Assembly: GCA_016794485.1 (NCBI GenBank)
Contig: JAEUHV010000326.1
Coordinates: 1 to 36,743, forward strand
Direction: 5' to 3'
Source of the DNA: Planctomycetota bacterium
GTDB taxonomy: Bacteria > Planctomycetota > UBA1135 > UBA2386
DNA: 36,743 bases
Below, piece after piece: positions 25,938-30,218 of this stretch (positions within the stretch are counted from its first letter, which is position 1; each line of letters opens with the position of its first letter). Position numbers and translations under genes: made by a program. The notes beneath the pieces were generated by a model. That model did not search any database, had not been told where the DNA came from, and saw only the letters and a list, made by a program, of their open reading frames with translations.

Positions 25938-26666
25938 TCATTGCTGCGGGACGCCGATCGATCGTGCCAGCGCCGCCAGCATGGTCGGTACGCAGTCCAT
26001 TGCGCGACCCGGGTGCCAGTGGTCGCGTCCGTCGAGGTTGTCCGGCTCGTCGAGCGACTGCACCCAGGTCGTGGCGCCGTTGGCGCGCGCGGTCGCCAGC
26101 ATGCCGGCCGCCGGCCACACCTTGCCACTGGTGCCGATCGCGACGAAGTGCGTGCAGCGACGCAGCGCGCGTTCGATCTCGGCCATGTGGAACGGCATCT
26201 CGTGGAACCACACGATGTGCGGGCGCAGCCGCGGGTGCTCGCACGCAGCGCACGGCACGAAGCGCCCCGGGTCCACGTGCACGCGGTCTTCGACCACGGT
26301 CTCGCACCTTTCGCAGCGCAGCTTCACGAGTTCGCCGTGCATGTGCAGCACGTCGCTGCCGGCGCGGTCGTGCAGATCGTCGACGTTCTGGGTCACCAGC
26401 ACGAACTCGTGGCCCGCGGCTTCGAGCCGCCTGGCGAACGCGGCCAGCGCGTGGTGCGCGGCATTGGGCTGCACGGTGCGCAGCTGCGCGCGGCGTTCCT
26501 GGTAGAAGCGCCACACGAGGCGCGGATCGCGTTCCCAGCCGTCCGGGGTCGCGACGTCCTCGACGCGGTGGCCTTCCCAGAGGCCGCCGGCGTCGCGGAA
26601 CGTGCGCACCCCGCTGTCGGCGCTGATGCCGGCTCCGGTCAGAACGAGTACGTGGTGTGGCGGCAT
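25938..26666 (-). CDS. cobB: Sir2 family NAD-dependent deacylase (sirtuin)
   Basis: A 242-residue protein with the complete sirtuin core: 'LTGAGISADSGVRTFRD' (NAD loop), 'TQNVDDLH' (92-99), catalytic His110 in 'LHMHGEL', four zinc-binding Cys (118, 121, 139, 142 in CERC and CAAC) and 'IGTSGKVWPA'. Tyr55 and Arg58 in 'FYQERR' match the class III pair that favours removal of succinyl/malonyl groups, so it may be a desuccinylase as well as a deacetylase. Its ATG lies 1 nt after the stop of the thioredoxin-like selenoprotein gene, so it is translationally coupled to it. The gene symbol is assigned by family. Confidence 0.95.
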   Translation of the reverse strand: MPPHHVLVLTGAGISADSGVRTFRDAGGLWEGHRVEDVATPDGWERDPRLVWRFYQERRAQLRTVQPNAAHHALAAFARRLEAAGHEFVLVTQNVDDLHDRAGSDVLHMHGELVKLRCERCETVVEDRVHVDPGRFVPCAACEHPRLRPHIVWFHEMPFHMAEIERALRRCTHFVAIGTSGKVWPAAGMLATARANGATTWVQSLDEPDNLDGRDHWHPGRAMDCVPTMLAALARSIGVPQQ

Positions 26667-26667
26667 C

Positions 26668-27054
26668 TCACGAACCGAGCAGCTTCTTCAGGGCCGCATC
26701 GATGCCGTCGCGCGTCTGCTTGTGGCCCGACTCCGACCACAGCACCTTGTCGGCTGCGTCGGTCACGACCATGCCGTGGATGTCGAGGCCGTACCGCTTG
26801 ATGCGGTCCTGGCTGTCGCCTTCGTCGTGCTTGACGACCTTGCAGTCGACCTTGCCGGTGTAGTCCTTTGCGAGCCCATGCACGATGGGCTCGACTCGGG
26901 CACACTGGGGTCAGCCCGGCATCGTGAAGTAGGTGAGCGCCAGCGGTCCGGCCTTGGCGGGCGGGGCCGATGGCGATGTCGGTGAGTTCGGGGCATTCGC
27001 CCCGCCGCAGGCGGCGAGGGCGAAGGCTGCGAACACGGAAGTGGCGCGCAACAT
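26668..27054 (-). CDS. Thioredoxin-like selenoprotein lipoprotein (in-frame UGA read as Sec)
   Basis: Read through the TGA at 26911-26913, this 128-residue product has a lipoprotein leader with lipobox LAAC (Cys16), a Pro/Ser linker (about 17-37) and a thioredoxin-like domain. The domain has 'LALTYFTMPG', then Sec48-Pro49-Gln50-Cys51, then 'ARVEPIVHGLAKDYTGKVDC', 'YGLDIHGMVVTDAADKVLW', and ends 'ALKKLLGS'. The TGA sits exactly at the first position of a CPxC motif, preceded by a beta strand and followed by a helix. A perfect hairpin lies 17 nt downstream of the UGA (26871-26893). The other genes here use TGA freely as a stop, so genome-wide reassignment is not the explanation. Without read-through, two truncated genes would remain. 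The cis-Pro loop is not obvious, so the redox partner is unknown; it is presumably an envelope lipoprotein. A nonsense mutation or sequencing error of a Cys codon is the main alternative. Confidence 0.8.
26871..26893 (-). promoter_or_regulatory. Candidate bSECIS hairpin for Sec insertion
   Basis: On the minus strand, arm CGAGCCCAT, loop CGUGC, arm AUGGGCUCG: a perfect 9-bp stem. It starts 17 nt after the UGA at 26911-26913. The loop has 5 nt with G in second position, and 27 nt separate the UGA from that G. These features meet the published bacterial SECIS rules (G among the first two loop bases, loop 16-37 nt from the UGA). The hairpin lies inside the coding sequence and encodes residues 54-62. 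Confidence 0.75.
26911..26913 (-). other. Predicted selenocysteine codon (UGA)
   Basis: A TGA in frame between 'TYFTMPG' and 'PQC'. It corresponds to residue 48 of the thioredoxin-like lipoprotein and to the first Cys position of a CPxC redox motif. It is annotated as Sec rather than stop because of motif position, the downstream hairpin and intact coding sequence on both sides. Confidence 0.75.
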
Positions 27055-27167: not shown

Positions 27168-30100
27168 ATGTCCACACGCTTCGCCGCTCGTCCCGTCCTT
27201 CTCCTGCTCGCCGCTGCGCTGCCCGGCCAGCAACTGGTGCGCGACATCGCGCCGCCGAACTCGCAGCGCAGCAGCAACGTGGCGCAGATCGTCGACCTCG
27301 GCGGCGTCGCGGTGTTCGTCGGTACGTCCGCGCACGGCACCGAGCTGTGGCGGTCCGACGGCACGATCGCCGGCAGCTACCTGCTGAAGGACCTGGCTCC
27401 GGGAACGGCGAGTTCCTACCCGACGCGGCTCACGGTCGCCGGGCCGTACGTGTTCTTCACCGCCACCGTGCCCGGGCTCGGCAACGAACTGTGGCGCACC
27501 GACGGAACCGCGCAGGGCACCATTTTGCTGCGCGACGGACAGCCGGGCAGTGGCACCGGTGCGCCGAACGAAATGGTCGCGTACGCCGGCCATCTCTGGT
27601 TTCCCGCGTACACGCCCACGAACGGCTGGGAGCTCTGGCGCAGCGATGGTACGCCGGCCGGCACGGCCCAGTTCGCCGAGCTGGTGCCCGGCGCGGGCGG
27701 CTCCAATCCGGCCAACCTCGCGGTCGGCAACGGCCTGTTGTTGTTCTCGGCCTTCACGTCCACCAACGGCACGGAGTTGTGGCGCAGCGACGGCACCTCG
27801 GCGGGCACGGGCATGGTCCGCGACCAGAATCCCGGCATCGGGAGTTCGGCGTTCCTGCAGATGGTCGGCACCCAAAACGGCGTCTACTGGGTCGGCAGCG
27901 ACGGCCAGGGGGCCGGGCACGAACTGCACTGGAGCGATGGCACGTTCGCCGGCACGCGCCTCGTCGCCGACATCGTGCCCGGAGTGAATGCGCCGTCGTA
28001 CCAGTACCTGACGCCGTTCGGGAACCGTGTGTTGTTCGCGCTCGACGACGGCACCGGCTTCGGCACCGAACCGTGGACCAGCGACAGCACCGCGGCCGGC
28101 ACGCTGCGCCTCGCCGACGCCAATCCGGGCAGCACCGGTTCGTCGCCGTACGAGTTCATGGCAGCCGGCTCCGGGCGCGCCGTGTTCGTCGCCAACGAGC
28201 CTGCGTCCGGCTACGAATTGTGGGGCACCGACGGTACGCCGGCGGGAACGTCGCAGCTCGTCGATCTCCTGCCGGGAGCCAATTCGTCGAGCCCGCAGTA
28301 CCTGGCGCCCGGTCTCGGCGGCGTCTTGTTCTCCGGCATCGACCAGGCGCACGGACGTGAGTTGTGGTTCACCGACGGCACGACCGCCGGCACGCACCTC
28401 GTCGCCGATCTCTACGCCGGTGTGGGCAACAGCTCGCCGCAGCAGATGGGAGCGGTCGGCAACCGCGTGTTCCTGCGCGCCTACTTGCCGGCGGTCGGCT
28501 ACGAGCTGTTCGTCACCGACGGCACGGCGGCCGGTTCCGTGTTGGTCGCCGACCTGGCGACGCCGGTCGGCGATTCGTCGCCGCGGTCGTTCGTCGCAAC
28601 CAGCAACGGGGTGGCGTTCCAGGCCACCGACTCGGGCACGAAGCTGTGGCGCAGCGATGGCACGACGGCCGGGACGTTCGTGCTCGACTTCGGGCCCAGC
28701 AGCAGTGCGTACGGGACGAACGTCGTGCTCGGCGGCATCACCTACATGAACGGCTACGTTCCGACCCTCGGCTACGAGCTGTGCCGCAGCGACGGCACGC
28801 AGGCCGGTTCCTTCGTGTTGGACGTGCGGCCGGGCAGTGCGGGCAGTGACCCGACCAACCTCGCCGCGGTGAACGGCAGGCTGTGGTTCAGCGCGATCGC
28901 GACCGGACTCGGCTACGAGCCCTACGTGTCCGACGGCACGTTGGCCGGCACCGTCGCCCTCGGCGACCTGCACGCCGGCAACGGCAACTCGAACGCGAGC
29001 GGTTTCACGGCCTGTGGTCCGACCCGTGTGGTGGCCAACGCCTACACCGTCACCACCGGCAACGAGCTGTTGGTCAGCGACGGCACGCCGGCGGGCACGC
29101 AGTTGCTCGACCTGCTGCCCGGCAGCCAGGCCAGCGACCCCACGTCGTTCTGTGCGGTCGGCAACCTGACCTACTTCTCGGCCTATGCGCCGGCGACGGG
29201 ACGCGAGCTCTGGGTGACCGACGGTACGTTGGCGGGCACGCACCTCGTCGCCGACATCGCGTCCGGCACCGGCTACGGCAACCCGCGGCAAATCGTTCGG
29301 CTGGCGAACGGCACCCTGTTGTTCCTCGCCACGGCGCCGGGTTCGGGCAGCGAGATCTGGCGCAGCGACGGCACCGCCGGCGGCACGGCACTCGTCGGCG
29401 AAGTGGTGGCGGGCGGTGGCCAGGGCAACGTGCTCGACCTCTGCGCGGTCGGCAGCCGTGCGTACTTCACCGCCGACGACGGCGCGACCGGCCGCGAACT
29501 CTGGGTCACCGACGGCAACACCGTCACCCTGGTGCGCGACATCTGGCCGAGCCAGCCCGACGGCGTGACGTCGGGCACGCTGCGCGCGCGGCCCGGGGCC
29601 AACGGCGTGGTGTTCGCCGGCAGCGACGGCAACGACGGTCTGCAGATCTGGGTCAGCGACGGCTCCGCTCTCGGCACCACGCAGGTCGGCAAGGTCGGGC
29701 CGTGGGCAGGCTCGGGCGCGGTCGAGATCGGCGATTTCAACGAGCTGGCGGGCGACACGTGGTTCTGGTGCGACGACGGCATCACCGGCAAGGAACCGTG
29801 GCGCATCACCATCGCCGGCGTGGTCGCGGCGGTGACGACCTTCGGCCAGGGCTGTGCGGGCAGCGGCAACCTGGTTCCGGCGATCGGCGCGCTGGGCCTG
29901 CCGCAGCTCGGCAACGCCGGCTTCGCGATCCGCGTGCAGAACGGCCTGCCGGGGTCGCTCGGCGTGGTGGCCCTCGGTTCGGCGCCGACGCTGCTGCAGA
30001 TCGGCAACTGCCGGGTGCTGGTGGCGCCGCCATGGACGACGTTGCCGGTGGTGTTCCTCGACGGGGCCGGTGCCGGTGCTGCGCCGCTGCCGATTCCCGC

Positions 30101-30218
30101 GAACCCGGCCCTCGAAGGCGTGGCGCTGCACGGGCAGTACGTCGTGCTCGACCCGAACGGGCAGTTCCTGGCCTTCGCGTCGCTGAGCAACGCGCTCACG
30201 ATGTTGCTCGGCAACTGA
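27168..30218 (+). CDS. Exported ELWxSDGT-repeat protein, 1016 aa, with shared C-terminal module
   Basis: A signal peptide (about 1-19, ending AALPGQQ) is followed by 17-18 repeats of about 50 residues spanning residues 40-890. Each has a G-x-E-L-W-x-S/T-D-G-T-x-A-G-T core, a short 'LV.DL.PG...S.P' segment and a 'L.AVGN.LFFSA' strand pair, a pattern that suggests beta-propellers. Copies differ in sequence, so the array is old rather than recently expanded. The last 130 residues carry the module seen on other exported proteins here: 'TFGQGCAGSG', 'GALGLPQLG', 'PIPANPALEGVALHGQYV' and the end LSNALTMLLGN. Function is unknown; a cell-surface scaffold or adhesin-like role is inference. A GAGGAA 6 nt before the ATG supports the start. 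It is divergent from the selenoprotein gene. Confidence 0.87.
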   Translation: MSTRFAARPVLLLLAAALPGQQLVRDIAPPNSQRSSNVAQIVDLGGVAVFVGTSAHGTELWRSDGTIAGSYLLKDLAPGTASSYPTRLTVAGPYVFFTATVPGLGNELWRTDGTAQGTILLRDGQPGSGTGAPNEMVAYAGHLWFPAYTPTNGWELWRSDGTPAGTAQFAELVPGAGGSNPANLAVGNGLLLFSAFTSTNGTELWRSDGTSAGTGMVRDQNPGIGSSAFLQMVGTQNGVYWVGSDGQGAGHELHWSDGTFAGTRLVADIVPGVNAPSYQYLTPFGNRVLFALDDGTGFGTEPWTSDSTAAGTLRLADANPGSTGSSPYEFMAAGSGRAVFVANEPASGYELWGTDGTPAGTSQLVDLLPGANSSSPQYLAPGLGGVLFSGIDQAHGRELWFTDGTTAGTHLVADLYAGVGNSSPQQMGAVGNRVFLRAYLPAVGYELFVTDGTAAGSVLVADLATPVGDSSPRSFVATSNGVAFQATDSGTKLWRSDGTTAGTFVLDFGPSSSAYGTNVVLGGITYMNGYVPTLGYELCRSDGTQAGSFVLDVRPGSAGSDPTNLAAVNGRLWFSAIATGLGYEPYVSDGTLAGTVALGDLHAGNGNSNASGFTACGPTRVVANAYTVTTGNELLVSDGTPAGTQLLDLLPGSQASDPTSFCAVGNLTYFSAYAPATGRELWVTDGTLAGTHLVADIASGTGYGNPRQIVRLANGTLLFLATAPGSGSEIWRSDGTAGGTALVGEVVAGGGQGNVLDLCAVGSRAYFTADDGATGRELWVTDGNTVTLVRDIWPSQPDGVTSGTLRARPGANGVVFAGSDGNDGLQIWVSDGSALGTTQVGKVGPWAGSGAVEIGDFNELAGDTWFWCDDGITGKEPWRITIAGVVAAVTTFGQGCAGSGNLVPAIGALGLPQLGNAGFAIRVQNGLPGSLGVVALGSAPTLLQIGNCRVLVAPPWTTLPVVFLDGAGAGAAPLPIPANPALEGVALHGQYVVLDPNGQFLAFASLSNALTMLLGN

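Follow-up and report, generated by a model that had tools for sequence, protein, structure and literature searches.

The gene at 26668..27054 on the minus strand of the window, the whole 36,743-nucleotide stretch of DNA that was analysed, is best read as encoding an oxidoreductase with a thioredoxin fold, anchored at the envelope, from a new family that is dominated by Sec and widespread in Planctomycetota. When TGA is translated as Sec (U), the gene encodes 128 residues, with Sec48 at an in-frame UGA (26911..26913, minus strand) that opens a UPQC motif. The frame runs from an ATG at 27054 through TGA 26913-26911 to a terminal TGA at 26670-26668, and is divided into two half-ORFs by the first of these TGAs alone. 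Its translation reads MLRATSVFAAFALAACGG...LALTYFTMPG-U-PQCARVEP...KKLLGS, wherein a lipoprotein signal and a Pro/Ala/Ser-rich linker precede the strand LALTYF, MPG, the TGA, and finally PQCARVEP...LLGS. The original prediction gave no strand; the two half-genes in one frame with a single TGA between them, the lipoprotein leader, and the strand and MPG followed by PQC are all present as it described them, on the minus strand. The signal peptide and its lipobox LAAC span 27007..27054 (minus strand), and the presumed lipidated Cys16, for which lipidation is predicted, lies in an alignment column kept in at least 90% of 17 homologues. Due to its UGA, a gene of this kind is easily overlooked or wrongly annotated as two fragments. 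At 71% G+C, 80 codons would stay open after the TGA by chance with P ~0.23, so the frame alone proves little; it is the homologues and the conserved hairpin that place the selenoprotein gene far above chance.

Homologous genes number 53, including that of the window, and are spread over 52 Planctomycetota genomes, with exactly one in-frame TGA apiece. An initial search, of 100 relatives, brought the family to 17 genes (the window's among them). Across the 154 genomes of the order, a profile search recovered 33 genes from 32 genomes; each of the genes in both sets also has exactly one TGA. Searching the class covered as many genomes as the order, the single addition being an ordinary thioredoxin-like match, and a search of the phylum (392 genomes) contributed 20 further genomes with a TGA-containing member. 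Three close relatives, all from planctomycetes, came from a scan of the collection, and a tblastn search of plasmids returned no match. When 52 genes were aligned, the column of residue 48 held U in 51 and Cys in one, and the TGA of all 51 UGA genes fell in this one shared column, as UxxC. The motif itself varies among homologues (UPQC, UMLC, UPLC, UMFC, URDC, UPFC, UGMC, and others), and the second Cys, the resolving Cys51 (26902..26904, minus strand), is invariant in all 52 aligned sequences. The sequence beyond the UGA is conserved in homologues through to the C-terminus. A bacterial selenoprotein is marked by an in-frame UGA whose flanks are both conserved and at which homologues have Cys or Sec, as is the case here, and on comparative grounds UGA48 is almost certainly read as Sec.

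Four features make up the family signature: the lipobox, UxxC, an HG whose His takes the place of the thioredoxin cis-proline, and a further conserved motif, GH, next to the active site. Among the 52 aligned sequences, the His and Gly of HG are present in 50 and 52, respectively, and the Gly and His of GH in 47 and 52. The sole putative Cys homologue, L093 from genome G196, has CPFC and sits on a long branch; it keeps GH, lacks the His of HG (VKGL is found instead), and is without the conserved hairpin, and its status as a Cys orthologue of the Sec family is uncertain. The other inspected matches without a stop, L101 among them, were considered as Cys orthologues and rejected, as they are CxxC thioredoxin-fold proteins that do not carry the family signature. 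With 53 Sec genes against one putative, distant Cys gene, it seems that Cys could hardly take over the function. The original prediction is supported by each of the computational checks that it had proposed; it missed both the size of the family and its two conserved His residues, one of them at the cis-proline position.

Directly downstream of the UGA is a bSECIS-like hairpin (26871..26893, minus strand), which is predicted by RNA folding and which covaries and holds one position across the family. Its sequence, CGAGCCCAU-CGUGC-AUGGGCUCG, forms a perfect 9-bp stem from arms 26893-26885 and 26879-26871 around the loop CGUGC (26884-26880). The stem starts 17 nt after the UGA, as originally described, and the loop starts 26 nt after it. 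The bSECIS model calls for an apical loop of 3-9 nt on a stem of 4-16 bp, with a G at loop position 1 or 2 and a distance of 16-37 nt from the UGA (PMC13188914); the window hairpin, with its 9 bp, its G at loop position 2, and its distance of 26 nt, falls within these ranges. Folding of the window sequence gave z-scores of -1.97 (51 nt) and -3.19 (71 nt), and an Rfam scan of the window gave no match.

The hairpin is also a property of the family. At least 3 contiguous base pairs form at one fixed place in 49 of 51 family sequences, whereas 1000 synonymous recodings, a control that leaves the relatedness among the 51 sequences in place, averaged 15 sequences with such a hairpin at that place and never exceeded 27. 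The inner pairs swap between C-G and U-A and between G-C and A-U across the family, with changes on both sides of the stem, and none of the registers slid by up to 9 nt offers three good consecutive inner pairs in the 51 genes. The Val codon in the loop is GTG in 40 of 48 sequences, even though family genes as a whole favour GTC for Val. Stems are mostly longer in the window's clade. In the large f8 clade the perfect stem is typically only about 3 bp and the outer stem is bulged, which makes the SECIS of these members less canonical. A strict 4-bp bSECIS search consequently left many f8-clade members unmatched, and these were resolved by the fixed-position test with its recoding control. A hairpin held at a fixed position in this way is a source of many natural bSECIS variants.

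The host genome, a Planctomycetota MAG that is 83% complete, encodes machinery for Sec insertion, for which the original prediction had proposed a search. It contains selB (349.9 bits against a cut-off of 242), a tRNA-Sec with anticodon UCA (76.1 bits), and selD (346.4 bits). Host selD is itself a UGA gene (L018:1501-2418, minus strand), with its in-frame TGA in GSGUAAK, and adjoins selA at a contig end. Only the C-terminal part of selA (model positions 277-454) is present, because the contig ends there, 4 bases from where the match stops. A tRNA-Sec was found in 50 of the 52 family-bearing genomes compared with 67 of 99 genomes in a phylum sample scored at 58 bits or more (Fisher p ~3e-5, for samples that overlap and are phylogenetically non-independent). 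The two gene-bearing genomes in which none was matched, G040 and G309, may possibly reflect assembly gaps. G040 is 92% complete and its congener G128 has a tRNA-Sec; contig C10 of G040 also carries two UGA copies of the family gene (L031/L054 and L044) about 3 kb apart. Sec use is common in Planctomycetota, since a strong tRNA-Sec occurs in about two-thirds of the sampled phylum members and in 91 of 101 genomes of the near-relative set.

A gene for a SIR2-family protein (25938..26666, minus strand; Pfam PF02146, 139.8 bits) begins 1 nt after the selenoprotein stop. The SIR2 gene is probably co-transcribed with the selenoprotein gene, and probably translationally coupled to it as well. The same gene order is repeated in the congener G003 (L021) and is absent in G005. 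When the neighbours of 20 homologues were clustered, no partner was kept beyond close relatives, and none pointed to a substrate or reductant; the genes had been called crudely, as longest ORFs, which is a noisy method at such G+C. On the other side lies a divergent 1016-aa ORF (27168-30218, plus strand), which contains an ELWRSDGT-type motif and matches nothing in Pfam.

The predicted structure places the protein in the thioredoxin fold class. An AlphaFold2 model built from four sequences (the window's and those of related loci) has the order beta-alpha-beta-alpha-beta-beta-alpha, with a pLDDT of 90.4 and a pTM of 0.83, and its best PDB matches by Foldseek are thioredoxins with a TM of ~0.8. 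In this model U48 lies directly before helix 1, which puts the dyad at the N-terminus of that helix and agrees with the earlier claim of a redox motif at the right place in a thioredoxin-like fold. Two profile alignments set His93 of His93-Gly94 (26773..26778, minus strand) at the thioredoxin cis-proline position, and an hhalign column match sets Gly110-His111 (26722..26727, minus strand) at the position of thioredoxin G92-A93. Both positions border the active site in thioredoxin. Cis-Pro is more conserved across the thioredoxin fold class than CxxC, and is likely part of the substrate-binding site (PMC2757866). With a conserved His facing the active site in place of cis-proline, the chemistry is probably unlike the disulfide exchange of ordinary thioredoxin; this His yields a specific and testable prediction on that chemistry.

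The protein is probably a lipid-anchored, extracytoplasmic Se/S oxidoreductase that works through Sec48 and Cys51. Bound to the stem-loop that follows, SelB would direct the ribosome to read UGA48 as Sec, an insertion that is predicted here. Sec48 and Cys51, spaced as Sec48-x-x-Cys51 where helix 1 begins, would then serve as the redox centre: the selenolate would attack the substrate, and the selenenyl intermediate would be resolved by Cys51 to give a Se-S bond, which would be reduced by an envelope reductant. His93 and His111 may tune or assist the selenolate. Redox catalysis, like its direction, is a prediction. The wider picture is put forward more tentatively: a phylum-wide, almost wholly Sec-dependent family may carry, at the planctomycete cell surface, a U-C-H-H site that arose by the change of cis-proline to His. 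If true, this would be a new type of active site, for metal binding or for His-assisted selenolate chemistry.

The strongest alternative holds that Sec48, Cys51, His93, and possibly His111 form a surface site for a soft metal such as Cu(I) or Hg(II), so that the protein would scavenge or chaperone metal instead of acting as an oxidoreductase, and would still be a selenoprotein. Among NCBIfam models, the one that comes nearest for the window protein, though below its threshold, is that of SaoT, presumably part of a Sec-assisted organometal gene set. Also in favour of a metal site is the His that nearly all members carry in place of cis-Pro, since it has been proposed that cis-proline keeps metals from binding to the CxxC sites of thioredoxins (PMC2757866, citing Su et al. 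2007). A parallel is seen in the Sco copper proteins, whose thioredoxin fold is membrane-anchored and carries two Cys together with a conserved His (PMC6307045). However, the motif is UxxC rather than the CxxxC of Sco, a Sco Pfam match is absent, and the crude neighbourhood analysis showed no metal-related gene adjoining, which leaves this explanation unlikely.

Still less likely is that the protein reduces peroxide, selenite, or another small molecule, with its His acting like the Arg found at the cis-proline position of peroxiredoxins, where it helps activate the peroxidatic Cys (PMC2757866). Sec is known in peroxidases (PMC13188914), but the 17 members scanned gave no peroxiredoxin or glutathione peroxidase Pfam match. 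That the gene is a pseudogene or a sequencing error, its TGA being a true stop or a misread TGC or TGT, could draw on the chance openness of the frame, and is effectively refuted, as the TGA recurs at one column in 51 of 52 aligned genes, which come from many families of the phylum, and the protein is conserved before and after it. Reassignment of UGA (for example to Trp), or nonspecific readthrough instead of a Sec system, is contradicted by the use of UGA as terminator in the window gene and several homologues, by the tRNA-Sec, SelB, and SelD of the host, and by the fact that the only non-UGA homologue carries Cys, not Trp.

The proposed lipid-anchored oxidoreductase belongs to a family that is apparently unnamed and undescribed so far, as judged from a literature search of mainly open-access, non-preprint papers. 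In searches of Pfam and NCBIfam, the window protein stays under the cut-off of every model, and even the best matches of the 52 members have weak E-values, which fits the original view that this is not a standard named selenoprotein. A 2026 review tabulates many UxxC thioredoxin-like selenoprotein families; judged by names, motifs, and listed models, the present family is not recognizable in that table, and the main text of the review contains no word starting with "Planctomycet".

Several known systems resemble the family in part. SaoT (NF040730), a small thioredoxin-like UxxC (seleno)protein, is the best NCBIfam match of the window protein at E 2.7e-6, but the score is 26-27 bits against an equivalog cut-off of 65, over a partial domain alignment. 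TsoX (NF045809), the TUGYCR redoxin (NF053656), and the Rcas_1661 thioredoxin-like (seleno)lipoprotein (NF041057) are similar selenoprotein families, two of them described as thioredoxin-like and one a lipoprotein; their matches are faint (E 2e-5 to 0.1, in 1-5 members only) and their named motifs are others. Sco (SCO1/SenC) has a CxxxC motif with a distal His. The window family differs from Sco in having UxxC and no match to its Pfam model, and shares a His, which is located at the cis-Pro site. Closest in structure are thioredoxin (PF00085) and Sec-containing thioredoxin (UxxC), with which the family has in common the fold, the helix-1 dyad, and the profile and PDB matches, although the window protein scores 19.5 bits, below the PF00085 cut-off of 23.5. 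Where PF00085 has a cis-Pro before strand beta-3, a His is aligned. Ultimately, the new family is set apart from thioredoxin by having no WCGPC, a His for cis-Pro, an additional GH, a lipoprotein anchor, and nearly always Sec.
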